Shown piece after piece: positions 2,892 through 17,982 of a stretch of 64,000 nucleotides of DNA (positions within the stretch are counted from its first letter, which is position 1; every line of letters begins with the position of its first letter). The notes below the pieces were generated by a model that ran no database searches, was not told the DNA's origin, and worked only from the letters and a program-made list of their open reading frames with translations. This DNA is from Cyclobacterium sp. SYSU L10401 (GTDB lineage: Bacteria > Bacteroidota > Bacteroidia > Cytophagales > Cyclobacteriaceae): contig NZ_WOFO01000001.1 in the NCBI RefSeq assembly GCF_010993705.1, positions 1-64,000 on the forward strand, read 5' to 3'. The translations under genes were made by a program, and so were the position numbers.

Positions 2892-3707
2892 TTAACGTAC
2901 TGGCACTAATTCCTGATCCATTATCTGTTCAAACCTGTCTGTGTCCAACAGGTCTTTAATACTTTGAATCACATGGTTAGGAGAATAGGCCAAATTTTCT
3001 ATTTCTTCCCTGCGAGTAGAACCCGTAAGGGTAAGGACGGTTTTAAAACCCATTTGTACGCCTCCCAGGATATCGGTTTCCATGGTATCTCCAATCATTA
3101 TGGTCTGTGCCGACCGGGTTCCCAGTTCTGATTTTGCAATCCGCATCATGACGGGGCTGGGTTTTCCGGCACTGAATGCCTTTTTTCCGGTGGCCATTTC
3201 GATCATTGATACAAAGGCACCACAGCCTGAGCGAATGGAGTTATTGGAGCTTGGGCAGTACGCATCCAGGTTGGTAGCGATCAATTTGGATCCGTTCATG
3301 ACCATATTGATAGCTTTGTCAACAGATTCAAGCATAATGGTTCTTCCTTCACCGATCACCACGTAATCGGGTTCATCATCCACGATGGAATAGCCGTTTT
3401 GGTGCAGTGCGGTGAGCAGTCCTCCCTCCCCGATTACGTAGGCTGTTCCGCCAGGTTTTTGGGAGGCCAGGTACCTTGCCGTGGCAATGGCGCAGGTAAA
3501 GATGTGTTTTTCCGCTACCTTAATGCCCATTCGGCTTAATTTGGCAACCACGTCCCGGCAGTTTCGCTGACTATTATTGGTTAAAAACAGAAAAGGGTAG
3601 TCTTCCCTTAATAGTTTATGTATGAATTCCTTCGCACCAGGGATCAATTCACCTCCGCGGTAAATTACCCCATCCATATCGATCAAAAATCCCAGGTCTT
3701 TTTTCAT
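2892..3707 (-). CDS. HAD superfamily (IIA, NagD-like) phosphatase
   Basis: The 271-residue protein has the full HAD motif set. Motif I is DMDGV with nucleophile D10 and D12, motif II is TNNS at 43-46, the motif III lysine lies in AGKPSP, and motif IV is GDTMETDI. The overall pattern (GAKEFIHKL, FLTNNS, ATNLDAYCP) matches the NagD/p-nitrophenyl phosphatase branch with a C2 cap. It probably dephosphorylates small sugar or nucleotide phosphates in the cytosol, and the substrate cannot be told from sequence. The start is ATG at 3707. The gene stands alone, facing away from the RNA gene region. Confidence 0.9.
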   Translation of the reverse strand: MKKDLGFLIDMDGVIYRGGELIPGAKEFIHKLLREDYPFLFLTNNSQRNCRDVVAKLSRMGIKVAEKHIFTCAIATARYLASQKPGGTAYVIGEGGLLTALHQNGYSIVDDEPDYVVIGEGRTIMLESVDKAINMVMNGSKLIATNLDAYCPSSNNSIRSGCGAFVSMIEMATGKKAFSAGKPSPVMMRIAKSELGTRSAQTIMIGDTMETDILGGVQMGFKTVLTLTGSTRREEIENLAYSPNHVIQSIKDLLDTDRFEQIMDQELVPVR

Positions 3708-4085
3708 AGTGTATGCTGTTAACTTGTCTGATACAAAAATACGGTATATTTAATAAAAACTAAAAAAAAATGATAGAAAAGTAATTTAAATTATCTCTAA
3801 TTAAAAATAATATAATAAAAATAATTAAATATTACTAAAATGAAAATACTAAAAGTCATGATTTTTCGGTTTTTAAAAACCATTTCCTATCCGTTTGAAA
3901 CGGAATGTTGCTGGTGCATTTGACCCTGAAAGCCTGGTCGACAAAACCCGTTGAGAATTCATTAATTTCCAGCTTATATCGAGCGGCTGATTTGCTAATA
4001 AATGCCTAAAAAAGGTTAAATATTAAATATAATGTAAAATTATATCATTTTTATTGCTGGGTTTTTAAATTAATGTTGCTTTTAT
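3708..4085. other. AT-rich gap without a gene
   Basis: This 378-bp stretch is strongly A+T-rich, especially 3735-3860, and contains no credible coding frame on either strand. It lies between the HAD gene start and the promoter-like box of the RNA gene and probably contains the upstream control region of the HAD gene. I see no repeats or stable hairpins in it. Confidence 0.5.
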
Positions 4086-4093
4086 TACCTTTG
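4086..4093 (+). promoter_or_regulatory. Putative -7 box TACCTTTG upstream of the RNA gene
   Basis: TACCTTTG matches the Bacteroidota -7 consensus TAnnTTTG exactly. No TTG -33 box is found at the usual 19-21 bp spacing. A start near 4100 would give a transcript containing the partial copy at 4137 and the tRNA-like gene at 4226, ending at the terminator near 4381. Confidence 0.4.
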
Positions 4094-4136
4094 ACATATC
4101 AAACAAAGACAAACGGTCTTAGAAATGTTGAAATCT

Positions 4137-4166
4137 TGTAGGGTGATGAAACCTGCCTTCGGCAGG
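4137..4166 (+). repeat. Partial copy of the tRNA 5' end joined to a hairpin
   Basis: TGTAGGGTGATGAAAC at 4137-4152 is identical to the first 16 nt of the tRNA-like gene at 4226-4241. Instead of continuing as a tRNA it runs into the 6-bp hairpin CCTGCC-ttc-GGCAGG (4152-4166). It looks like an aborted or recombined duplicate of the tRNA 5' half, 89 bp upstream of the complete gene. Confidence 0.6.
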
Positions 4167-4225
4167 CAAATAAAAAGTGATATTGCTTATTCATTTTCAT
4201 CTCTATACAAATTAAGATCACACAA

Positions 4226-4349
4226 TGTAGGGTGATGAAACTGGCAGACATGCCCCCCTGTCTCGGGGGTGGGGAGTACAGTATAAAGCAAATATCGAGC
4301 TCGTGTTTTGCCTAACTGCCCCGTGGAGGTTCGAATCCTTCTCCTACAG
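4226..4349 (+). tRNA. Atypical type II tRNA (or tRNA-like RNA), anticodon GUC, very long variable arm
   Basis: The sequence folds as a cloverleaf. Acceptor TGTAGGG (4226-4232) pairs with TCCTACA (4342-4348), one G-U, with discriminator G4349 and no encoded CCA. The D arm has a 3-bp stem ATG/CAT and GG at 4243-4244. The anticodon stem is CCCCC (4253-4257)/GGGGG (4265-4269) with loop CTGTCTC, placing T at 33 and GTC at 34-36. The T arm is GGAGG/CCTTC with loop TTCGAAT. The variable region (4270-4323) is over 50 nt and itself folds: GGGG/CCCC, AGT/ACT, then GCAAA...TTTGC. The D arm resembles tRNA-Leu, G73 is more like tRNA-Ser, yet the anticodon would read Asp codons. Normal tRNA-Asp has no long arm, and T at position 37 is unusual. 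It could be a functional allo-tRNA-like species, a regulatory RNA or a decayed tRNA. Confidence 0.6.
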
Positions 4350-4380
4350 CAGGTTATTTTGGGTTTATTGTTAATTGACT

Positions 4381-4412
4381 AAAGCTATGGAACAGTGTTT
4401 CATGGCTTTTTT
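4381..4412 (+). terminator. Rho-independent terminator of the tRNA-like gene
   Basis: AAAGCTATGGAA (4381-4392) pairs over 12 bp (two G-U) with TTTCATGGCTTT (4398-4409) around a CAGTG loop, and the T-run spans 4407-4412. It lies 32 nt after the tRNA 3' end with no other gene nearby, so it supports a discrete transcript for the RNA gene. Confidence 0.75.
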
Positions 4413-4489
4413 CTTGTACCGAAAAACTAATTTTTTGGTCAAATTATCACCACATTACCAAATCATCTCATCATCAAATCATCCCTCCG

Positions 4490-4640
4490 AGCCCTTCGTG
4501 CCCCCTCCGTTTCCTCTGTGACGAAAAACCTCTACTTCGCCACGCCAGACAACCGTTCTCAAATCCCCCTCTCCCTGCGTCTCACTGTCCCTTCGTCTGC
4601 AAGTCTCTCAGTCTCTTAGTCACCCAATCCCTCGCCCCTT
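4490..4640 (+). repeat. Copy of the pyrimidine-rich intergenic repeat
   Basis: The order of phrases gcccttcgtgcc, ctctgtgac(g/a)aaaaac, cgccacgccagacaac, cctcaaat-type, tctccctgcgtctcac, cccttcgtctgcaagtctctcagtc is shared with the copies at 2738-2872 and 4950-5098. The similarity spans roughly 150 bp with scattered substitutions. It has no coding potential. Confidence 0.6.
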
Positions 4641-4739
4641 CTTACTGTTTTGTGGATATGGATTCAGGTAATTTTCGTTCAAATTATTAGCCATAAAAAT
4701 GGAGGTAATCGCATCCTAAAAAGTTGGCCATGGACCCTG

Positions 4740-4910
4740 CATATTGATTGGCCGTTCTCTTTCTTTTTGTCTTGACACAAAAAGAAACAAAAAAAGTCAA
4801 GGCACAAAAATCCTTCACCCCGCAATCCTCCAGCACGGCCCGGTTTTGTGCCGGCCCCCTGCACTTTTCGTAAAAAATGGAGGACTTCGACTATTTTAAA
4901 TTTCATGGAT
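4740..4910. repeat. Hairpin-bearing intergenic element
   Basis: TTTCTTTTTGT (4760-4770) and ACAAAAAGAAA (4777-4787) form a perfect 11-bp stem around CTTGAC, followed by an A-run and 'gtcaaggcacaaaaatcc'. The stretch continues as a GC-richer section (cagcacggcccgg...gccggccccctgcac) and ends near 'aaatttcatgg'. An open frame of 75 codons on the minus strand is produced by this low-complexity hairpin and is not a gene. Elements with this wording are, from memory, common between genes in Bacteroidota. Confidence 0.5.
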
Positions 4911-4949
4911 AGAAAATCTGATTGCTCAAATCACTCCGTCATTTTTTCT

Positions 4950-5098
4950 CCACAAAACCCTCCGCGCCCTTCGTGCCTCCTCCGTGTCCTCTGTGACAAA
5001 AAACACCTATCTCCGCACACCCGGCAATCGTCCTCAAATCTCCCTCACCCTACGTCTCACGGTCCCTTCGTCTCCAAGTCTCTCAGTCACTAAGTCTA
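4950..5098 (+). repeat. Best-preserved copy of the pyrimidine-rich intergenic repeat
   Basis: It contains all phrases of the family in order: ccctccgcgcccttcgtgcc, tcctccgtgtcctctgtgac, aaaaaacacctatctccgca, cacccggcaatcgtcctcaa, atctccctcaccctacgtc, tcacggtcccttcgtctcc, aagtctctcagtcactaagt. Copies at 2738-2872, 4490-4640 and 5530-5657 match it with differences. It directly abuts the GGTTAA-type repeats. Confidence 0.65.
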
Positions 5099-5106
5099 AA
5101 TCTAAT

Positions 5107-5281
5107 GGTTAAGGGTTAAATGGCAGGTTGCTGGCCATGTTGTTCAGAGTGGCTGCCCGGCTGTCAGTTGTTACTCTGGATTCAACCGGGGTAGTTAAGG
5201 GTTAAACAATTGTACCTTCAGTTAACCAGTTATGGCAATAATCCTGAATTATGGATTCAGCCGGATTGGTTAATGGTTAAA
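5107..5281 (+). repeat. Three units of the GGTTAA(N)GGTTAA-type repeat
   Basis: GGTTAAGGGTTAAA (5107-5120), AGTTAAGGGTTAAA (5193-5206) and GGTTAATGGTTAAA (5268-5281) have 86 and 75 bp spacing. The second and third are preceded by 'ggattca(a/g)ccgg'. The same family is at 211-310, so two blocks of it flank the 5-kb left segment in direct orientation, each followed by the pyrimidine-rich repeat. Confidence 0.55.
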
Positions 5282-5289
5282 ATAGCGTT

Positions 5290-5500
5290 CCTGCCTTGCC
5301 TCCCCCTCCTGTTTTAGGACGGGCCCGGGGGGTGGTCCTAAAGGGCCCCGGCATTGGCGGAAAGCCGGCTTCACGGTTGAGCAGCTGGATAGCCAATGCA
5401 GGAAGGTTCAGTTCCCCTATCGCCGGGCTGCGCCTCCCTTGTCGGCTTACCAGGGGTTAGCATCTTTTCACCCTTTCAGGGTTTGGTTTAGTTGACTTTC
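5290..5500. repeat. GC-rich intergenic block with hairpins
   Basis: This is a local GC-rich island in an otherwise AT-rich intergenic region. TTAGGAC (5314-5320) and GTCCTAA (5335-5341) form a hairpin around a G-rich loop, and further G/C-rich complementary stretches (gggccccgg, ggaaagccggc) follow. The section 5415-5480 (ccgggctgcgcctccctt, ttcaccctttcagggtttgg) has no coding potential. It has the look of an intergenic repeat, but only one copy is in the window. Confidence 0.35.
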
Positions 5501-5529
5501 AATTAACCAGTTAACCAATTAAACCATCT

Positions 5530-5657
5530 CTCCGTATTCTTTACGACTCAAAACCCCTATCTCCGCATGCCAAAAATTCGTCCTCAAATCTCCTTCTCCC
5601 TAAGTCTCACCATCTCTAAGCCTCTTAGTCCCTTCGTCTCTACGTCTCTCAGTTCCC
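5530..5657 (+). repeat. Copy of the pyrimidine-rich intergenic repeat reaching the pectate lyase stop
   Basis: The wording 'tctccgtattctttacgactcaaaacccctatctcc', 'cgtcctcaaatctcc', 'ccctaagtctcacc', 'cgtctctcagttcccc' aligns with the copy at 4950-5098. Its right end runs into the 3' end of the pectate lyase gene, whose stop codon is at 5649-5651. Confidence 0.55.
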
Positions 5658-6746
5658 CATCCTCTTCTTCCACTCCGGATAGTCGCTTTCCAGCAGCTCT
5701 TTTGCATAGGGCCCCAGATAGCTATAGCCCACCCGTCTTTCGTGTTCTATTTCGTGTAAGGCATACCGTACCACACTGTCCCTGCCCACAAACATGGGAC
5801 GATTGGTGCCAATTTCGTAAAACCTGGCCCAAAGGGGTCCGGCATCCGCATCCGGAACCACAACGAGATCGTAACCTCTGGGCAAATCGGGCTTTTCTAC
5901 CCGGTCCAGTCGGATGTTTTCCAGCTTTACTTTCTGAAACCAACCTACGGCGCTTTCAATGGCTTCAATTACAGCCGCATCCGGTTGCTCCAGCTGCATC
6001 AGGTATTGGATGATTCCCACACTTTCCGATCCGCTAATGGAGGGCAGCTCGTAGGCCCGGGCCTGTACCGGACGCAGGTCTTCCCGGTCAATTTGCGCAC
6101 ACCAGGCGGTGAGTTGCTTGTTTACCTGAATCTGTGAGCCCAGAATTATTTCCAGGCCCTTATCAATGGCTTCCTGGGATTTTTTCCTCCTTGATTTGCC
6201 GGCAAAAGCATAAAGGGGTGCATAATTGGCTACCTCCCGGAGCAGGTTCATGGCTTGAATCATGGCCCCATCGTTAAAGGTAATATGAGAATAGTATCCC
6301 TCCCGAAGCGGATAATATTGCGGCCAGCCGCCATTTTCGTATTGGGCTTCCAGCAGGTAATCCAATCCGGCAAGGGCTGCGTTTTTATATCGGGGTGCTC
6401 CGGTCTCCCGGTACACCTTGGCCAGGTATTCCATTTGTATAAATCCCGCATCGTTGTCCAGGGTGGTACCCACGATGTTGGATTTTTCCGCTATCAGCCT
6501 TTCTTTTTCCGCATCCGTCAGACGCTTCGACATGTCTATATTCTTATACCAGCCGCCGTTTTCTTTCTGGTAAAGGAGAATGTTTTCGGCAATTTGATTA
6601 GCCTGGTCTGTCCCATACCAGGATGCCTTCTGATCCAAAATTTCTTTCCAGGAAATGCTACCTTGCGACAGGCTTTTAAAAGAGGAGGCATGAAGAAGCA
6701 GGGTGAAAAGGAAAAGGGTTTTTACAAATAGGCATTTTGGTAGCAT
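5649..6746 (-). CDS. pelA: Pectate lyase, PL10 family
   Basis: The 365-residue secreted enzyme is predicted to cleave polygalacturonate by beta-elimination. The signal peptide is MLPKCLFVKTLFLFTLLL...SFKSLSQG. PL10 hallmarks are visible: ASWYGTDQANQIAENILLYQ, QKENGGWYKNIDM, TTLDNDAGFIQMEYLAKVY, YENGGWPQYYPLR, ITFNDGAMIQAMNLL and the catalytic-arginine neighbourhood TAWCAQIDREDLRPVQARAYE. The length is typical for the catalytic domain alone; there is no carbohydrate-binding module. I chose the ATG at 6746; the frame extends to a TTG at 6776 with no better signal. It is isolated from other pectin genes in this window. Confidence 0.9.
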   Translation of the reverse strand: MLPKCLFVKTLFLFTLLLHASSFKSLSQGSISWKEILDQKASWYGTDQANQIAENILLYQKENGGWYKNIDMSKRLTDAEKERLIAEKSNIVGTTLDNDAGFIQMEYLAKVYRETGAPRYKNAALAGLDYLLEAQYENGGWPQYYPLREGYYSHITFNDGAMIQAMNLLREVANYAPLYAFAGKSRRKKSQEAIDKGLEIILGSQIQVNKQLTAWCAQIDREDLRPVQARAYELPSISGSESVGIIQYLMQLEQPDAAVIEAIESAVGWFQKVKLENIRLDRVEKPDLPRGYDLVVVPDADAGPLWARFYEIGTNRPMFVGRDSVVRYALHEIEHERRVGYSYLGPYAKELLESDYPEWKKRMGN

Positions 6747-6819
6747 GCTTTTGCTGGGTTTAACGTTAAGAATCAAGACACAAGTTACTAAAATCTTATC
6801 ATATCAGCAGGTGAACGAT

Positions 6820-9063: not shown

Positions 9064-12000
9064 TTGATTTTGTCTGATGTGCTGAAACCAGAATTTATTC
9101 AATCCTCTTCCAAGGATCATTCCACCACCGTAATTGATTTATTTCAGCAGCAAGTGAAATTGAATCCAAGTAGGACGGCCGTGGTTGACGAAGAGCAATT
9201 GATTTCTTTTGAAGAGCTGGATGTTTTGTCCAGCCGGGTAGCTGCATTTTTACAAAAGGCAGTAGCAGGGAAGCAGCAAATTGTTCCTATTTGTATGGAA
9301 CCTACCCACCATTTGGTGGCTACCATTTTGGGGGTATTGAAATCTGGTCTGGCATTCGTTCCCCTTAATCCCGACTGGCCGGAAAAAAGAAAGGTTGACA
9401 TCGTGGAGCAGGTCGGTGCCCAATGGGTACTATCGGTTGATCCGAAGATGGATTTTGGTCAAAAACAACCTCACTTTTCGGTTTTATCCTGGGAACAATT
9501 TTCCTTACCTGCAGGAGGCAATATCCTACAGACTGGTCCCATACCGTCAGCGAACCTGGCCTACGTCATTTATACATCAGGGAGTACCGGTTCGCCGAAA
9601 GGAGTGATGGTTGGGCATTCCCAACTTTTCCAGGCTACACAAAATAGGTTGGCTCATTATGCCTGTAGCCCGGAGTTATTGTTGATACCGGCTCCCAGTT
9701 TTGATGCAGCACTGGCAGCCATATTCTGGCCTTTGTGTGCCGGAGGAAAGCTTGTCATGGCCGCAAAGACGTCCCTGCAGAATGTGGACCAATTACCTGA
9801 TTTACTACGGCACACAGATACCTTATTGTGTGTCCCTTCTTATTATCGGTTTTTATTGGAACAAGGCCTGCTGGATACCCTGAAAATAGAACGGGTGATT
9901 TTGGGAGGAGAAAAACTGACAAAAGACCTTGTTCAGACGCATTTTCACCATTATCCTCAATGCCTGCTTTACAATGAATATGGTCCGACAGAAACTACCA
10001 TTTGGGCTACGGTGGCAGCCATCCGGCCTGAGGATGAGCTGATTTCAATTGGAAAGCCCTTACCTGGCGTAAGTTGTCATGTCCTTGCTGAGGACGGGCA
10101 GGAAGTAGCAGCCGGGAGTGTTGGTGAACTTTTTATTGGGGGCAGGCAAGTGGCATTGGGGTATTGGAAAGACAAAAAGCTCACTGCTCAAAAATTTCTG
10201 CCGGATCCCTTTTCGGCAGCATCAGGAGCGACCCTTTATGGTACCGGAGATTTGGTCCGAAAATTGCCGGATGGAAACTATCTGTTTGAGGGAAGGAAAG
10301 ACCGGCAATTTAAATTTCAGGGTAACCGGGTTGATCCATCAGAAATTGAAAAGGTTTTATTGGAAGCAGGGGAATTAAAAGAAGTCCTGGTAAGTCCCCT
10401 CTTCGAAACTGAGGGGAGGCCGGATCAAATCCTGGCCTTCGTTATTCCAAAAGAGGCCACCCTGGATATGGACTCATTAAAGGCGAACCTGACACATAGG
10501 CTGCCGGCCTACATGCTTCCGTCCAGAATTATACCTATGGAAGCGTTTCCCCTGACAGAAAACGGTAAGGTCGATCAGCTTGCATTGGTGACAGCACTTG
10601 ATCAGCCTGACCCTGCTTCTACCCCGCTGGCTTTTGCGGATCCCATGGAGGAAGCCTTGCACAAAGCCTTCAGCCAGGCTTTGGGACATTCCAATTTTAA
10701 CATGTCCCAGAATTTTTTTGAGCTAGGGGGAAACTCTCTGGCTGCCATGCGGCTTTCCGCTATATTGAAAAGCAAACTGGGACTTGCGGTTGACTTGAAG
10801 GATATTTTTGATTGGCCTACTGTTTCGGGATTATATCAGCATATCCGCAATCAGGAGCTTGATACCAGTAGTGAGCCTGATGATTTTCAACCGGCATCTA
10901 TAGCGGATTTACCCCAGATATCTCCTGGCCAGCAATCCCTTTGGCTAATAGACCATCTGGAAGGTTCCACAGCCTATCACTTGCCGGCTGCCTACCTGCT
11001 TTCCGGAAAAATCAACCCTGAAATTTTGGAGAAAGCCATTCAATTGATTGTTAAGAAGCAACAAGTACTGAGGATGACTTTTCAGGGCATTGATCAGGTT
11101 TCCTTAAAGTCTGAGCAGGATTGGAATTTGAATGTTTTAAATGCGTCTGAAGAAACTTATACAGCAGCGGATTTTTCCAAACTATTTACTCCTTTGGTCA
11201 GCAAGCCTTTTGATCTTGCTGCTGATTTTATGCTTCGCGCCCAGTTAATCAGCTTTAAGGATCAGGTGCATGTGCTTGGCCTGGTTTTTCATCACATTGC
11301 TTTTGATGATTTATCCATGAAGCTTTTTCTTAGGGAACTTTCTGAAAATTACAAATTATTGGAGAAGGGAATGGATCCTGATTCTTCCTCAGTCAGTACG
11401 GAATTTACACGTTACGCTCAGTATCAGCAGGGTTTGTTGGAAAATAGCGCTTTTGATAAAGGCCTTGAATACTGGAAGCAAAAGTTGGCTGGACAGGAAA
11501 AGCTCCGCTTGCCTTATGACTTTCCTTTCAAATCTAGTACCAAACATGAGGCTGGCGTGCATCGCTTTTTTTGGAATAAAGAACTCCTGGAACCACTCAC
11601 TGAACTGGGAAGAGCCCATGGCTCCACCCTCTTTATGACCTTGCTGGCAGCATTTAAAGTGTTGCTCTACCGATATAGCCATCAGACAGATATCTGTGTA
11701 GGCACCACGGTGGTGGATAGAAATTTGCCTGGAACATCAGGAACGATGGGCTATTTTATCAATACCCTGCCGCTGAGGTCTGAATTGGATCCGATAGGCT
11801 CCTTCCAGACTTTTTTACAGTATGTCAGGAATGAGCTGCTCTATGCCTTGCGGCATGCAAATGTGCCCTTCCTAAAGCTTGCATCAGCTATTCCTTCTAC
11901 CCCGGCAAAAGACCATAAACCTTTTTTTGACCTGATGTTTGTCATGCATGAGGGTTCCAATGGTCCCAAAAAACCGGAAATTCCAGGAATAGCAGCACAA

Positions 12001-15000
12001 ATCCTGGAGACAGATCCGGTAAGTTCAAAATTTGCCATTACCCTCACACTGGTGGAGGAAAATGAGGGGTTGAGAGGGCATGTGGAGTTTGACAAAAGCT
12101 TGTTTTTGGAGGAGACCATTCATAGGATGACAAGCCATTTCCAAAAATTGCTCCTTGAACTCCCCAAAATGCCTCAAAAGCCCGTTAGAGAGATTAATTT
12201 ACTATCGGCAGCCGAAATCGAAAAGTTTTCGGGCAGGGACTCCTACCAGAAAGGAGTTGCCTTTTTGCCCTTTTTGGAGCGTTTTGCGCAACAGGTTCAT
12301 TCCTCCCCATATTCCAGGGCATTGCTCATTGAAACGGAAGAGATTACTTTCGAAAGCCTCAATCACAGGGCCCTGCAAATCGCCTGCCTGTTAAAAGAGA
12401 ATGGCATTGAGCAGGGAGCACTGGTAGCCTTATTGGTGGGAAGAGGAATGGATATGGTTGCTGGCATGATGGGAATCTGGAGAGCCGGGGCAGCTTATGT
12501 GCCGGTGGATCCAAAATATCCTCAGGAAAGGATCAATTATATTTTAGGCGATTGCGGTGCTAAATTTTTATTGACAGACAAGGCCTCTGAAAGCAAGTGT
12601 CCGGAGCGTGGGAATCATTTGATTATCAATCTGGATAATGAGGGTAAGTCAGGTGAGGTTACTGCCAGTACTTTTCCATCCATAGGGCCGAATCAATTGG
12701 CATATGTGATTTATACCTCTGGAAGTACAGGAAAACCGAAAGGGGTGGGCTTGACGCAAGCCAATCTGGCGGCCTTTCTGGATTGGTGTGGCAAGGAGTT
12801 TCCGTTGGATGACTTTGAGTCAGTGTATGCGGTCACCTCCATGTGTTTTGATTTATCAGTTTTTGAGTTGTTTTTTCCGCTGGCTTATGGGAAGCCTGTC
12901 AGGATACTTCCAGACGGGTTGCACATTCCGGAATATTTGGGAGGGGATAAAAATGTATTGATAAATACCGTTCCCAGTGTAGTTCAAAAACTGGTCGAAG
13001 CCAGGCTGGACTTTGGACCTGTGAGCTTACTGAACATGGCAGGAGAGCCGGTCCCAGCAGGGCTGATGGAGAAACTGGACCGTAAAGGTCTGGTGGTGAG
13101 AAATCTTTATGGTCCTACAGAAGATACCACCTATTCTACTTGCCAGGTGCTGCAAGCTGGTGAGCCTGTTTCGATTGGCAAACCCATTGCCGGATCTTAT
13201 GCCTATATTTTAAATCAGGACCTGATTCCCTGCCCCATTGGGGTACCGGGGGAGATTTATTTGGGCGGACAGGGGCTGGCTAATGGTTACCTTAACCAAC
13301 CAAAGTTTACTGCAGAGAAATTTATTCCTGATCCATTTGCTACAGCGGAAAGCAGTTTGATGTATAAAACCGGGGACCTTGGCCTCTGGACCAGAAAGGG
13401 GAAGATCAATTTTCTTGGTCGGCTGGATAATCAGATCAAACTAAATGGTCACCGGATCGAACTGGATGAAATTTCTTATGTGTTGCAATCCCAAAAGGGC
13501 GTAAAAAATGCGGTCGCAGTGTTACAAACTGCAAATACCGGAGAGCAACAGATAGTTGGTTTTGTGGTGGGCGAGAAAGAGGTGATTGAAAGAGAACTGT
13601 TTGAGGAGCTATCCAGGCAGCTGCCCCAATACATGGTACCTTCCAGCATACATTTTTTGGAAAAGATGCCCCTGACACCTAACGGTAAAATAGATCGCAA
13701 ATCGTTGGAAGAACTGAAACCACTTCCAGGCACCGGGGATCAGCAACAGGCTTTTGAAGCTCCTTCTACTGTGCTGGAAAGCAATTTACTGGATGTCTGG
13801 AGAAAGGTACTCCAATTGGAAGGCATGGGTGTGACGGATGATTTCTTTGATTGTGGCGGAAATTCTTTGTTGGGCATCAGGTTGATTGGCAGGATGAGGG
13901 AATCTTTAGGGCTTGCGGTCAGTGTCAGTGAACTATTTGGACATCCTACTGTGAGACAAATTGCCTCGCTTATGGAGCAAAAAGGGTTGAAGGAAGGGGA
14001 AGCAGAACGAATTCCATCTCAAAAACCAAGGCCCGAATTTATTCCCTTGTCTTTTGGGCAGGAGAGTCTCTGGTTGACGGATAAACTGGAAGGTTCCGTT
14101 CAATATCATATTCCCATTCTTTTAAAAATCAAAGGGGCAGTGAGTTCAGGTTTACTTTCAGATGCCATCCGATCCATCATGGAGCGCCATGAGGTTCTCA
14201 GAACGGTAATTAAAGAGCAGGATGAAGATACCTGGCAGGAAGTCATGCCGGTTTTGGGTTGGAAGTTAACTGTTGATCATCAGGCAGCAAGCCAGGCTAA
14301 ACTGGATTTGGAATTGGCCGAATTCTTAGACAGACCTTTTGATCTTGGAAGCGATTTTATGCTTCGTGCCGGGCAATTTGTAACAGGGGAAAATGAATGC
14401 CTTTTGATGGTGGTGGTCCATCACATTGCTTTCGACGGCTGGTCTATACCCTTATTTATCAAGGAACTTTTTGCCTTATTGAAAGCAGATTTGTCAGGAG
14501 AAAGCTTGCTTTTGCCTCACCTGAAAATTCAATATGCAGATTATGCACTTTGGCAAAGGAAGCGGCTTACAGCAACGGTCTTGGAAAAAAAGCTGGATTA
14601 CTGGAAAAAGCACTTGAAGGGGGTCAAACCGCTAAACCTTCAGGAGTCACCCGGTAATTTATTAAAAAGAAGCAATGAAGGGGAAACTTTTGACCTTCAA
14701 ATTGGCCCGGTTCAAAAGCGTAAAATGCTCGGATTAGGGAAGCAGTTGGGGCTTTCTCCATTCATGATATTGCTGGCTGTTTTTAAATCATTGCTGGAGA
14801 GAATAAGTGGTCAACAGGATATTTGTGTGGGAACGGCTTTAGGTGGCAGGAGACAGGCAGAAGTAGAGCCACTATTGGGGTATTTTGTAAACCCGCTGCC
14901 CATACGGTCTTTTTTAAACCCGGAAAGTACATTGACAGAAATTCTTCTGCAGGTGAAACAAAATACATTGGAGGCCTTTGAACATCAGGATGTTCCATTT

Positions 15001-17982
15001 GAAAAAATTGTTGCTGCCACGGCCCAGTCCCGGGAATTGGGTGTCAATCCGCTATTCCAGGTCATGTTTGTCATGGAGTATGGAAATGAAAACAAAAATT
15101 TTGCAGAGGGTTTGTCCATGGAGGTGGTCCCATTTCAACAGACTACCTCTAAATTTGACCTGACTTTTCTGGCAAATGAAGATAAAAATGGTATCCATAT
15201 AAGGGTTGAGTATGCGAAAGCCCTCTTTGAGCATAAATTTATAGAAAAAATCGCCCTGGAATATAAAAGTATTCTCGACAGCTTACTGGAAAATTCAAAC
15301 CTTAAGCTCAATGAAATTTTGTCTGAGCAGGCTGCCAAATCCATTGGGGAAATTAACTATCGGAAAGCTGGGGATGAAAGTGATTTTATTCCTGTTCATC
15401 AATTGATAGAGGAGACGGTTAAAAAGAACGAGAAGAGAACAGCGGTAGTTTTTGGTAAAGAGCAGTTGAGCTATGGGGAATTAAACGCCCAGGCCAATCA
15501 ATTGGCATTTTATTTAAGGGAAAGAGGTCTGAAAAGGGGAGACATTGTAGGGTTGTTGATGGATAGATCACCCAGGTTTTTCATTGGTGTCCTGGGGATT
15601 TTGAAGGCAGGCGGAGCTTATCTTCCTGTAGATAGAGATTATCCTGATTACAGAATCAGTTACATGTTGGAGGATTCTTGTAGATTTTTTCTATCGGAAA
15701 CCGGAATACATACTGCTTTGGAGACTGCTGTAGAAAGGATATTGTGGGATGATTTCCTTGAGGTCAGTACAACTTTCCCAAAGGAAAACCCCCAATTGAA
15801 AATAAATCCTGAGGATGCTGCCTATATCATTTATACTTCAGGTACCACAGGCAAACCAAAGGGAGTATGCCTGGACCATTTTAATGTTCACCATTTTATT
15901 TCTGTGGTGAAAGATCAACCTGGGCTTTCCCCGGAGGATAAGGTATTGGCTGTCAGTTCCGTTTCTTTTGATATTGCCATATTGGAAACATTGGTTACCC
16001 TGGTTTTTGGAGCACAAACCCATCTTTTAGGTCAGATGGAGCGGAAAGAGCCTGACATCATCTTGGATAAGTTGGTGAAAGAGGAAATTTCGCTCATGTT
16101 TGCTACCCCTTCCCATTGGAAAATGCTTCTGTTAAATGGTTGGGATCAAAAATTTGGACGACTGAAAATCATCAGTGGTGGGGAGCCATTGGAGAAAACA
16201 TTGGCAGACCGCTTGTTGCCGCTTTGCAAGGAGTTATGGAATGTGTATGGTCCGACCGAAACCACCGTTTATTCTACCATCAGGCAGGTTTTGCCATCAG
16301 ACAAAATAGTGACCGTTGGAAAACCAGTGGCCAACACCAGGATTCATATATTGGATGCTGAACGAAATCCGGTTCGTAAAGGGATCCGCGGGGAAATTTA
16401 CATTGAAGGATTCGGAGTGGGTAGAGGATACCTGAATAGTCCTGAGCTCACCAAAGAAAAATTTGTTGAAGTCAGGGGAGAAAATGGTCAAATCCTCAGG
16501 TTGTATAAAACCGGTGATTTGGGAAGTATTACTGCTGATGATGAGTTGATAATTGCTGGACGGATGGATCATCAGGTAAAGATCCGGGGCTATAGGCTGG
16601 AGCTGGGTGAAGTTGAAAATGTCATCCGTGGACTGAGTGGGATTAGCGATGCCATCGTACATGTAAAAAAAGACTTGAATGAAGTTCCATTTTTAGTTGC
16701 ATATATTATTTCGGATCCTGCCGACAGTTTATACGAGAAGCATCCAAAACTCAGTCAAAATGAGGTCCGGCAATGGAAAAATCAGCTCAGCCTTACCCTT
16801 GCTGACTATATGATTCCAACAGATTTTGTTTTGATGGACACGTTTCCATTGATGGAAAATGGAAAAGTAAACCGAAATGCCCTGCCTTATCCTGACAGGG
16901 TAGCCCATCCCTTGGTTTCGGTTGGTGAAGAAATGAGTCCGGAGGAACGTCTGGTGGCCGATATCTGGAAAAGAGCTTTGGGCCTAAGTGTCATCAACAA
17001 GAGAGACAATTTTTTCGAGATTGGGGGACATTCCCTTACAGCGGTTAGGGTTATGGTGCAATTGGAAAAGGTATATGGGATCAAGCTGCCTTTATCGGTA
17101 CTATTTCGGTACCCTACCGTGCAGAAACTATCTCAAGCCATCAGGAGTGGGGTTTTGGGGGATAGTGAATGGAAAAGCCTGGTCGCCATCAAAACAACAG
17201 GGACCAAACCTCCCCTTTATATCATTCATGGGGGTGGTTTGAATATTTTACCCTTTTATGCAGTAGCAAAAAAAATGGATCGGGATCAGCCGGTTTTCGG
17301 CATTCAGGCCAAAGGTTTGGATGGAATAGAACAGCCACTCAACACGGTGGAAGACATTGCTGCCCAGTATTTGACAGAAGTTTTGAAACAAAATCCGGAC
17401 GGGCCATACTTTTTGGCAGGATATTCGTTAGGAGGAATTATAGCATTTGAGATGGCTTCCCAGTTGATAAAAATGGGTAAGCAAGTTGAAAAATTGGTTT
17501 TATTTGATACGTATGCCTTTCAAAGTGATCACAAAAAGCCTTTCTGGAAGCGTACGATCAATAAAGTCAGGCATTTTATTGGAAAAAGGAAGTTTGATGT
17601 GGAGTTATTGATCCACCAACCTGCTATATTTAAAAGAATTAAAACCACATCGATAGAAAGGAAGATCAATAAGCTCAACAAATTGATTAGCCCAAAGCAA
17701 GAAAACCCGGAATCCTCCTTACTTAAAACCTACAAACGGGTAGAATACGTTTATAAGGAAGCTTGCAAGGAATATGAAATTAAAAAATACCCTGGGTCAG
17801 TGGACCTGATTAAAGCCAAAATAGCTGCCGGCTACCTGCCGGATAAGACCTGTTTCGGTTGGACACCATTTGTTGATCAATTAAGGGTGTGGGAAGCAGA
17901 AGGCGAGCACATTACCATGCTTTCTCCCCCTAATGATGCTTCATTTGCCAGGTTATTACAGCAGGTTATCGATAAAAAATAA
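9064..17982 (+). CDS. Trimodular nonribosomal peptide synthetase, A-T-C-A-T-C-A-T-TE
   Basis: The 2972-residue enzyme is predicted to assemble and release a tripeptide. Adenylation domains have YTSGSTG-type loops near residues 166, 1213 and 2253, GPTE motifs near 307, 1349 and 2395, TGDL near 394, 1436 and 2482, and NGK lysines near 500, 1540 and 2597. Carrier-domain serines (GGNS, GGNS, GGHS) lie near 558, 1601 and 2656. Condensation domains have HHIAFDD near 743 (last Gly of HHxxxDG replaced) and HHIAFDG near 1785. The C-terminal thioesterase has GYSLGG near 2786 and a late His in GEHITML. No epimerisation, methylation or reductase domain is seen. It starts directly with an A domain, as loading modules do. 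No ATG is available: TTG at 9064 is used, with GTG at 9079 as an alternative. No phosphopantetheinyl transferase, MbtH or exporter lies nearby. Confidence 0.95.
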   Translation: MILSDVLKPEFIQSSSKDHSTTVIDLFQQQVKLNPSRTAVVDEEQLISFEELDVLSSRVAAFLQKAVAGKQQIVPICMEPTHHLVATILGVLKSGLAFVPLNPDWPEKRKVDIVEQVGAQWVLSVDPKMDFGQKQPHFSVLSWEQFSLPAGGNILQTGPIPSANLAYVIYTSGSTGSPKGVMVGHSQLFQATQNRLAHYACSPELLLIPAPSFDAALAAIFWPLCAGGKLVMAAKTSLQNVDQLPDLLRHTDTLLCVPSYYRFLLEQGLLDTLKIERVILGGEKLTKDLVQTHFHHYPQCLLYNEYGPTETTIWATVAAIRPEDELISIGKPLPGVSCHVLAEDGQEVAAGSVGELFIGGRQVALGYWKDKKLTAQKFLPDPFSAASGATLYGTGDLVRKLPDGNYLFEGRKDRQFKFQGNRVDPSEIEKVLLEAGELKEVLVSPLFETEGRPDQILAFVIPKEATLDMDSLKANLTHRLPAYMLPSRIIPMEAFPLTENGKVDQLALVTALDQPDPASTPLAFADPMEEALHKAFSQALGHSNFNMSQNFFELGGNSLAAMRLSAILKSKLGLAVDLKDIFDWPTVSGLYQHIRNQELDTSSEPDDFQPASIADLPQISPGQQSLWLIDHLEGSTAYHLPAAYLLSGKINPEILEKAIQLIVKKQQVLRMTFQGIDQVSLKSEQDWNLNVLNASEETYTAADFSKLFTPLVSKPFDLAADFMLRAQLISFKDQVHVLGLVFHHIAFDDLSMKLFLRELSENYKLLEKGMDPDSSSVSTEFTRYAQYQQGLLENSAFDKGLEYWKQKLAGQEKLRLPYDFPFKSSTKHEAGVHRFFWNKELLEPLTELGRAHGSTLFMTLLAAFKVLLYRYSHQTDICVGTTVVDRNLPGTSGTMGYFINTLPLRSELDPIGSFQTFLQYVRNELLYALRHANVPFLKLASAIPSTPAKDHKPFFDLMFVMHEGSNGPKKPEIPGIAAQILETDPVSSKFAITLTLVEENEGLRGHVEFDKSLFLEETIHRMTSHFQKLLLELPKMPQKPVREINLLSAAEIEKFSGRDSYQKGVAFLPFLERFAQQVHSSPYSRALLIETEEITFESLNHRALQIACLLKENGIEQGALVALLVGRGMDMVAGMMGIWRAGAAYVPVDPKYPQERINYILGDCGAKFLLTDKASESKCPERGNHLIINLDNEGKSGEVTASTFPSIGPNQLAYVIYTSGSTGKPKGVGLTQANLAAFLDWCGKEFPLDDFESVYAVTSMCFDLSVFELFFPLAYGKPVRILPDGLHIPEYLGGDKNVLINTVPSVVQKLVEARLDFGPVSLLNMAGEPVPAGLMEKLDRKGLVVRNLYGPTEDTTYSTCQVLQAGEPVSIGKPIAGSYAYILNQDLIPCPIGVPGEIYLGGQGLANGYLNQPKFTAEKFIPDPFATAESSLMYKTGDLGLWTRKGKINFLGRLDNQIKLNGHRIELDEISYVLQSQKGVKNAVAVLQTANTGEQQIVGFVVGEKEVIERELFEELSRQLPQYMVPSSIHFLEKMPLTPNGKIDRKSLEELKPLPGTGDQQQAFEAPSTVLESNLLDVWRKVLQLEGMGVTDDFFDCGGNSLLGIRLIGRMRESLGLAVSVSELFGHPTVRQIASLMEQKGLKEGEAERIPSQKPRPEFIPLSFGQESLWLTDKLEGSVQYHIPILLKIKGAVSSGLLSDAIRSIMERHEVLRTVIKEQDEDTWQEVMPVLGWKLTVDHQAASQAKLDLELAEFLDRPFDLGSDFMLRAGQFVTGENECLLMVVVHHIAFDGWSIPLFIKELFALLKADLSGESLLLPHLKIQYADYALWQRKRLTATVLEKKLDYWKKHLKGVKPLNLQESPGNLLKRSNEGETFDLQIGPVQKRKMLGLGKQLGLSPFMILLAVFKSLLERISGQQDICVGTALGGRRQAEVEPLLGYFVNPLPIRSFLNPESTLTEILLQVKQNTLEAFEHQDVPFEKIVAATAQSRELGVNPLFQVMFVMEYGNENKNFAEGLSMEVVPFQQTTSKFDLTFLANEDKNGIHIRVEYAKALFEHKFIEKIALEYKSILDSLLENSNLKLNEILSEQAAKSIGEINYRKAGDESDFIPVHQLIEETVKKNEKRTAVVFGKEQLSYGELNAQANQLAFYLRERGLKRGDIVGLLMDRSPRFFIGVLGILKAGGAYLPVDRDYPDYRISYMLEDSCRFFLSETGIHTALETAVERILWDDFLEVSTTFPKENPQLKINPEDAAYIIYTSGTTGKPKGVCLDHFNVHHFISVVKDQPGLSPEDKVLAVSSVSFDIAILETLVTLVFGAQTHLLGQMERKEPDIILDKLVKEEISLMFATPSHWKMLLLNGWDQKFGRLKIISGGEPLEKTLADRLLPLCKELWNVYGPTETTVYSTIRQVLPSDKIVTVGKPVANTRIHILDAERNPVRKGIRGEIYIEGFGVGRGYLNSPELTKEKFVEVRGENGQILRLYKTGDLGSITADDELIIAGRMDHQVKIRGYRLELGEVENVIRGLSGISDAIVHVKKDLNEVPFLVAYIISDPADSLYEKHPKLSQNEVRQWKNQLSLTLADYMIPTDFVLMDTFPLMENGKVNRNALPYPDRVAHPLVSVGEEMSPEERLVADIWKRALGLSVINKRDNFFEIGGHSLTAVRVMVQLEKVYGIKLPLSVLFRYPTVQKLSQAIRSGVLGDSEWKSLVAIKTTGTKPPLYIIHGGGLNILPFYAVAKKMDRDQPVFGIQAKGLDGIEQPLNTVEDIAAQYLTEVLKQNPDGPYFLAGYSLGGIIAFEMASQLIKMGKQVEKLVLFDTYAFQSDHKKPFWKRTINKVRHFIGKRKFDVELLIHQPAIFKRIKTTSIERKINKLNKLISPKQENPESSLLKTYKRVEYVYKEACKEYEIKKYPGSVDLIKAKIAAGYLPDKTCFGWTPFVDQLRVWEAEGEHITMLSPPNDASFARLLQQVIDKK

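Follow-up and report, generated by a model that had tools for sequence, protein, structure and literature searches.

The window (the whole analyzed stretch of DNA, 64,000 nt) carries a stand-alone gene for a tRNA-like RNA of 124 nt with GUC in the anticodon position, preceded by a promoter-type box and followed by a short tail and a Rho-independent terminator (Table 1). Direct reading of the sequence confirmed the cloverleaf pairing in all arms, the length, and the long variable arm that the original prediction had described, and its stand-alone position, anticodon, and Leu-type D arm with a 3-bp stem were likewise borne out. The features of a canonical cloverleaf found here are the 7-bp acceptor, the 5-bp anticodon and T stems, and the TTCNANN T loop. 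The anticodon loop differs by one base, A37 to U37, from the tRNA-Asp loop of the window's own genome (CTGTCAC). The window copy scores 150 bits with the covariance model described below.

Table 1. Features of the tRNA-like RNA locus and its surroundings in the window.
Feature	Position	Strand	Description	Basis
Promoter -7 box	4086..4093	+	TACCTTTG, TAnnTTTG type	sequence read, upstream-box counts
Partial upstream copy	4137..4212	+	TTGTAGGGTGATGAAAC (repeats the start of the tRNA-like RNA), then CTGCC-TTCG-GCAGG hairpin and degenerate 3' half	sequence, fold, blastn
tRNA-like RNA	4226..4349	+	7-bp acceptor with U1-A72, G2-C71, and G73; 3-bp Leu-type D stem; 5-bp anticodon stem; T arm	sequence read directly
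Acceptor helix	4226..4232/4342..4348	+	TGTAGGG/TCCTACA, seven pairs, one of them G-U	sequence
D stem	4235..4237/4249..4251	+	3 bp	sequence
Anticodon stem	4253..4257/4265..4269	+	5 bp, plus G26-U44	sequence
Anticodon loop	4258..4264	+	CTGTCTC (C32 U33 G34 U35 C36 U37 C38)	sequence
Extended variable arm	4271..4322	+	52 nt; GGGG/CCCC base, conserved ATAAA/CTAAC internal loop, variable distal hairpin (here GAGCTC)	comparison; base helix covaries
T stem	4325..4329/4337..4341	+	5 bp, loop TTCGAAT	sequence
Discriminator	4349	+	G73	sequence
Encoded C after G73	4350..4350	+	as in ordinary tRNA genes of the window's genome	sequence
Near-invariant tail	4352..4380	+	29 nt, GGTTATTTTGGGTTTATTGTTAATTGACT, putative seed of a small RNA that may be released	comparison among 99 genomes
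Rho-independent terminator	4381..4413	+	13-bp hairpin (4381..4409) and T run	sequence, fold
Possible target site	6744..6769	-	leader TTAACGTTAAACCCA...ATG of neighbouring gene	partial complementarity to the tail, predicted -17.3 kcal/mol

The upstream box is of the TAnnTTTG type, which we take to be the Bacteroidota-type promoter -7 consensus. In the 140 nt before the RNA, this motif is present for 49 of the 63 copies with a tail and for 154 of the 258 distinct full copies, where 0.09 occurrences would be expected in a stretch of that length; only copies ending in ACAGC were taken into these counts. The predicted terminator is present, and its hairpin starts 31 nt after the tRNA-like RNA instead of 32 nt. 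The tail and terminator together fold with z = -3.41, the tail being weakly paired. The partial upstream copy is shared by G000:C19, G003, G004, and G005 (blastn matches starting at query position 1, 22, or 38) and is probably a broken unit of a tandem array. At 9064-17982 of the window, 4.7 kb from the tRNA-like RNA, lies a frame of 2972 residues that by eye reads like a non-ribosomal peptide synthetase.

Standard searches did not report this RNA. No tRNA was called by ARAGORN anywhere in the window, and none of the family copies was called among 28 loci; no Rfam match, the tRNA family included, was found at 3000-6000 up to E = 1. The RNA is also absent from the 35 tRNA-model matches in the window's genome (150 of 340 candidates scored). 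Literature searches, covering titles and the starts of abstracts with most subscription papers outside their coverage, returned no description of it, and the family is apparently undescribed. Taken alone, the sequence of the window copy shows no folding advantage over shuffled versions of itself (z = -0.33, with 68 of 200 equally good), so one copy cannot prove the structure, which is decided by the relatives.

Homologues conserving the fold, named beforehand in the original prediction as a point on which it would stand or fall, were found. A blastn search with 4100-4415 gave a match in 77 of 99 genomes, the window's own included, a count of any match, some of them to the 3' part only. A covariance model built from 59 copies was run on 395 genomes of the class, again including the window's own. 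At 1e-4 it matched 230 of them, most of the weaker listed matches being 76-87 nt long and of ordinary-tRNA appearance; class-wide members, counted by hand at no less than 63 bits and 107-185 nt, were found in 67 genomes from 19 families. One further match (G318, 57.9 bits, 135 nt) is also member-like. In a phylum sample that overlaps the class sample, 31 of 296 genomes match at 1e-13, and two genomes of another class have three nearby copies each. The matches listed from a pattern scan of named genomes include Algoriphagus, Echinicola, Belliella, Indibacter, Cyclobacterium, Chitinophaga, Niabella, Flavihumibacter, Neolewinella, and others, spanning Cytophagales, Chitinophagales, and Saprospirales (lineages checked for three names). 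The RNA at this locus is a true member of a multi-copy family found in many Bacteroidota. No match to the window copy was found in the phage and plasmid records searched with it.

Copies of the family are single, 1.5-4 kb apart, or arranged in tandem arrays of units of about 175 nt; in the arrays inspected, a terminator follows the last unit only. Within the genus, the copies concentrate around the HAD-phosphatase, ddl, rluB, and potassium-channel genes; no consistent neighbour gene emerged from the neighbour clusters. These gene names, like trmB and suf below, are tentative assignments made from the sequences. Palindromes like CCCGATAGCTATCGGG are inserted in, or replace, the D/anticodon strand of some array units (L047:1740-1871 and 1920-2051; L086:4171-4338). 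In 51 of 80 loci (L304-L383), a clustered open frame lies over or beside the tRNA-like RNA; these frames are probably spurious and could be annotated as proteins.

The structure of the tRNA-like RNA is under selection. In 114 distinct rows, 99.4% of cells pair, and both-side changes were found at 14 of 25 pairs, the compensatory changes that the original prediction had looked for. Shuffled controls gave a mean of 7.0, with none of 500 as high as 14, and slid partners gave 2-4; the alignment was fitted to the model and leans toward the structure, a bias that the slid control addresses in part. Acceptor variants include TGTAGGG, TGTAAGG, TGTGAGG, TGCAAGG, and TGTTGGG, each with a matching 3' strand, and the anticodon stem occurs as CCCTC, CCCGC, CCGCC, and CCTCC. 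The outer half of the variable arm, between the conserved ATAAA and CTAAC, is free in length and sequence, and whole copies range from 114 to 166 nt. A distal variable arm with a shared GGGTTGACCAC motif, where the window copy has GAGCTC, was observed in several bacterial families and in viruses (L283, L290, L292, L297, L298, L302, L423, L424, L426, L428, and L429).

Base frequencies were taken from 144 distinct copies found with the covariance model in a search that set no sequence requirement for the loop or the ends; their places came from blastn and the model, so very diverged copies are under-represented. G73 and the C following it were found in all 144 copies, U1-A72 in 143, and G2-C71 in 141. 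The single exception to U1-A72 has A1 facing A72 and is located in the window's own genome (G000:C19:191-314). Among 142 seven-base loops, with two 11-base-loop copies from L047 left out, U35 is invariant, and G34, C36, and C38 were found in 135, 141, and 139 loops, respectively. Copies found with the loop pattern, in the scans of named genomes and of IMG/VR contigs, contain GTCTCG by construction. The C after G73 was also found in all 82 distinct model-source copies, which were cut with an expression demanding TGTA..G and ..ACAG ends, five non-fitting copies being dropped. It is shared with 28 of 29 ordinary tRNA genes of the window's genome, which mostly have no encoded CCA. A3 was aligned to the model.

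The strong aspartate determinants are G73, G34, U35, C36, and C38, with G2-C71 as a minor one; A73 is a leucine determinant, and G73 is an antideterminant for LeuRS (available part of PMC9976931). All of the strong determinants are present in the family, and the near-invariant bases correspond to aspartate identity elements, not to those of Ser or Leu. The charging with Ser or Leu proposed in the original prediction is rejected because G73, constant in all copies, acts against LeuRS and U1-A72 departs from bacterial tRNA-Ser. The covariation and the near-invariant bases also rule out simple decay, against which the original prediction had already argued.

Canonical tRNAs keep U33 and a purine at position 37. 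In the family, position 33 is U in 108 loops, G in 24, A in 6, and C in 4, and position 37 is U in 130, C in 8, G in 3, and A in 1. The window copy has U33 and U37, and the abnormality noted for its U37 holds for the family at large, with a pyrimidine in 138 of 142 loops. Judged by these alignments, the bases read by AspRS are kept and the features required for decoding are lost. Mistranslation or recoding, as had been suggested, is unlikely because positions 33 and 37 are not kept.

Several points count against an AspRS reading. The family has neither the short variable loop of tRNA-Asp nor its G1-C72 pair, and this pair is strictly conserved in bacterial tRNA-Asp (available part of PMC9976931), which disfavors easy aspartylation of an RNA with U1-A72. 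The 52-nt arm and U1-A72 could hinder AspRS, C38 is missing in three loops and G34 in seven, and the constancy of G73 and the loop bases could have another cause. U1-A72 is the pair that confers amidation of Asp-tRNA-Asn (same source and part). In the window's genome, gatB and asnS were found over the cut-off and glnS was not, which makes a GatCAB recognizing U1-A72 probable in this host.

The 29-nt tail was found at 107 places in 25 of the 99 genomes, 98 of them without mismatch, and a reversed control gave none. Among 258 distinct full copies, all ending in ACAGC and drawn from loci enriched for the family, the tail is exact in 59, has one mismatch in 4, has 4 or 5 mismatches in 2, and shows at least 13 differences in 193. 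Related tails, TTTTTGGGTTTATGTTGTTTATT for example, occur in some other genera; in many genera the tail is absent or different. A peptide encoded in the tail is ruled out because hardly any base varies, even at what would be wobble positions.

Minimal tRNA-likes, reduced to an acceptor helix and a T arm with little else, also precede this tail. Of 27 regions upstream of the tail, 3 were full copies past the filter, 19 had a helix of 7-8 bp, and 5 had none, as judged by a crude helix test in which at least three of the chosen helices (L155, L164, and L331) are plainly not an acceptor. Fast-evolving mini tRNA-likes before the tail were observed in L077, L094-L098, L112, L113, L121, and L132-L145, some of them adjoining a full copy with its own terminator. 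The tail was also observed without a tRNA-like RNA upstream in L128, L129, and L131 (1-3 mismatches), and in L130 (3 mismatches) directly after the stop codon of an open frame. Because the tail also follows mini tRNA-likes and an open frame, what the tails share appears to be a 3' end that is freed from a preceding element, in most cases the acceptor and T arm of a tRNA-like RNA.

Possible targets of the tail were searched for with its complement, TTAACAATAAACCCAAAAT, at up to 3 mismatches in seven whole genomes. The 60 sites fetched are from three of these: G000 (all 19), G002 (all 29), and G058 (12, from at least 14 non-self rows; 21 by tally); G004, G010, G042, and G054 contribute none to this count. 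Eighteen of the 60 non-self sites are located in sense orientation just before the ATG of a frame of at least 80 codons, and three in antisense; two shuffled patterns, run on G002 only, gave 1 of 31 in each orientation. A Pfam match was found in 14 of the 18 putative target genes, which include three TonB-dependent receptors (L205, L208, and L228), a sulfatase, a rhamnosidase, and assorted enzymes. In a set of 406 non-redundant leaders, drawn from loci collected for other purposes, AAACCCA took the first and AACCCAA the second rank of 35 permutations; first ranks also went to unrelated 7-mers of the tail complement, AAATAAC on the sense strand, and ACCCAAA and CAAAATA on the antisense strand. 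Duplex energies of the complete tail with these leaders are not significant: 89 leaders are at or below -12, and 14 of 60 shuffled tails are as good or better. The search by complement matches for a long conserved target site gave no firm result, and the candidate site by the neighbouring gene was not seen in the apparent homologue in L065. Against the rRNA operon, the tail reaches -25.3 kcal/mol, slightly better than all 15 shuffles (best -24.4). Exact complements in this operon are one 9-mer for the tail and two 8-mers for the GGGTTGACCAC arm, and no 8- or 9-mer was found there for the anticodon loop or GAGCTC. As a whole, the leader data are suggestive of binding of the tail before start codons.

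The locus can be described as a two-module small-RNA gene, whose first module, a conserved and structured class II tRNA-like RNA, is established by comparison. For the whole we favor, at somewhat less than even probability, the reading that a non-decoding tRNA-like RNA recognized by AspRS is joined to a tail that 3' processing frees as a small RNA. Transcription would start from the TAnnTTTG box. RNase P and a tRNA 3' nuclease would mature the tRNA-like RNA by cuts at 4225/4226 and near 4349, followed by CCA addition; the encoded C74, as in the real tRNAs of this genome, points to such tRNA-style maturation. AspRS would bind the product, and probably charge it, because G73, G34, U35, C36, C38, and G2-C71 are kept. 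Since U33 and the purine at 37 are not, the RNA is presumably non-decoding in the normal case and, instead of working on the ribosome, would serve as a ligand of AspRS or carry aspartate. The U1-A72 pair, used by tRNA amidotransferases, might also allow amidation to asparagine. In Cyclobacteriaceae, the same transcript would continue into the 29-nt tail and the terminator; a cut after the tRNA-like RNA would free the tail as an antisense RNA of roughly 60 nt, which may pair with AACCCA-type sequences before start codons. The suggestion of a regulatory RNA in the original prediction is partly supported by the near-invariant tail, which had no place in it.

Four other explanations were considered. 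In the first, which we regard as unlikely, the fold exists only for cutting by RNase P and RNase Z, stabilizing or releasing attached RNAs (the tail or sequences of the variable arm), and the RNA is never charged. The mini tRNA-likes, which retain before the same tail only the acceptor and T arm, fit this explanation, as does the wide variation of the distal variable arm in sequence and length. However, the GUCUC loop, U1-A72, and G73 stay near-invariant where the tail is missing, and likewise in a phage copy that was detected by BLAST and not with the loop pattern, which exceeds what a scaffold for cutting needs.

This phage copy belongs to a set of viral relatives. Ten IMG/VR contigs carry diverged copies with model scores of 91-110 bits, and no tail was found in the stretch examined for each of these ten. 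At least one tRNA gene was called by ARAGORN in eight of the ten stretches (in L423 a single one, 0.7 kb away) and none in L424 and L426; these two encode a phage-type DNA polymerase (PHROG 1252, E about 1e-140). In five viral stretches, tRNA-Ser(GCT) precedes the RNA by a few bases. A BLAST search with a viral copy found a 73.6% identical one, with the loop CUGUCUC, in the 636-kb phage record LR756504.1, where its surroundings contain eight named tRNAs and one tRNA call of undetermined type. A second tRNA-like family was also observed in viral contigs. It has an exact tRNA-Leu-like frame (CAGGTGGCGRAATTGGTAGACG ... TACAGGTTCGAATCCTGTCCTGAC) with the middle replaced by unrelated sequence (for example, L425:7683-7830, L427:4907-5049, and L430:5270-5412). 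Its pattern is matched by 115 viral stretches, with 82 distinct centres of 36-97 nt from 106 loci; an anticodon arm was not evident in the few copies checked by eye, and several copies lie in one viral array.

The presence of diverged copies on the ten contigs and in the large phage, with an ordinary tRNA gene nearby in eight of the ten and in the phage, agrees with a decoy or sensor in phage-host conflict, whose GUC loop baits anticodon-loop nucleases or a tRNA-sensing defence and which viruses carry for the same reason. Conservation of the loop despite variation at U33 and position 37 also fits such a role. Against it, the bacterial copies lie at housekeeping loci, next to rluB, ddl, HAD, trmB, and suf genes, and no recurring defence gene was recognized in the neighbour clusters on inspection by eye. 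We give this explanation still less weight than the scaffold.

A decoding tRNA for Asp codons, allo-tRNA-like and inserting aspartate or another amino acid, is very unlikely. It accords with the seven-base GUC loop, with U33 in 108 of the 142 loops, and with the four loops that combine U33 with a purine at 37 (CTGTCGC in three, CTGTCAC in one); yet 34 loops have no U33, position 37 is almost always a pyrimidine, and an ordinary tRNA-Asp(GUC) gene exists. Least probable is a mobile or repeat element, a recombination site, or a decayed tRNA-Leu spread by duplication, for which the multiple copies, tandem arrays, and palindromic inserts in some array units could be cited but which is disfavored by the compensatory changes, the promoter boxes, the depth across the phylum, and the near-invariance of specific bases; plain duplication or mobile spread is rejected.

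The reading with an AspRS-recognized, non-decoding RNA may extend beyond this locus. In a wider and distinctly more speculative form, it would describe phylum-deep tRNAs of aspartate identity, charged but withdrawn from decoding, that serve as aspartate carriers (possibly amidated to asparagine by GatCAB via U1-A72) or as AspRS regulators, have entered the tRNA arrays of large phages, and in one bacterial family are fused to a released small RNA. If so, a single tRNA-maturation event would produce a regulator along with the tRNA-like carrier. A tRNA-like RNA that is conserved, multi-copy, and non-decoding would, in Bacteroidota that can be cultured, represent a new participant where translation meets regulation; the tRNA and RNA-family searches used here failed to detect it. 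One transcript poses the questions of charging by AspRS, amidation by GatCAB, release of the tail, and why large phages keep copies among their tRNA genes. In a bacterial order for which the literature searched contained no small-RNA study, the tail gives access to post-transcriptional control.

The family resembles both known tRNA-like RNAs and multi-copy small RNAs, and it lacks a defining feature of each kind of tRNA tested. With bacterial tRNA-Asp (GUC) it shares G34, U35, C36, C38, G73, and G2-C71, but it has U1-A72 in place of G1-C72, a class II body with the 52-nt arm, and a Leu-type D arm, and it does not keep U33 and R37. Compared with tRNA-Leu, it has no A73, and compared with bacterial tRNA-Ser, which combines G1-C72 and G2-C71 with a Ser-type arm, it has U1-A72 instead of G1-C72. 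Allo-tRNAs have 8/4 or 9/3 acceptor/T-stem domains and Ser-type identity; the present family, in contrast, has the normal 7/5 domain and Asp-type identity. What it has in common with allo-tRNAs and selC* tRNA-Cys is being a non-standard tRNA with a long variable arm, while those RNAs share the lengthened acceptor and anticodon stems of tRNA-Sec (available part of PMC7609411). tmRNA, another bacterial RNA with a tRNA-like domain, has no lower cloverleaf half, is charged with alanine, and contains a reading frame for a tag (available part of PMC3929946); the full anticodon arm of this family rules out that identity.

Among regulatory RNAs, there is a close likeness to FopS and GibS of Bacteroides, multi-copy RNAs with a seed and a terminator that act on start-codon regions in this phylum (available part of PMC11697453). 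A multi-copy family, a conserved single-stranded seed, a promoter, and a terminator are common to both, and one FopS member is derived from a 3' UTR, as the tail in L130 seems to be (same source and part). The present family includes a tRNA-like module, for which the available part of their description has no counterpart (PMC11697453), and the Rfam search of 3000-6000 gave no match up to E = 1 at its locus. FopS-type RNAs are marked by RbpB binding and repression of translation; for the tail, what was observed in this respect is complementarity close to start codons. Finally, 3'ETS-leuZ of Escherichia coli, a small RNA from the 3' end of a tRNA precursor that acts as a sponge, demonstrates that trailers can regulate (via PMC8383071, available part). 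Its source is an ordinary pre-tRNA, whereas here a multi-copy tail, a candidate for release, follows non-decoding tRNA-like RNAs.
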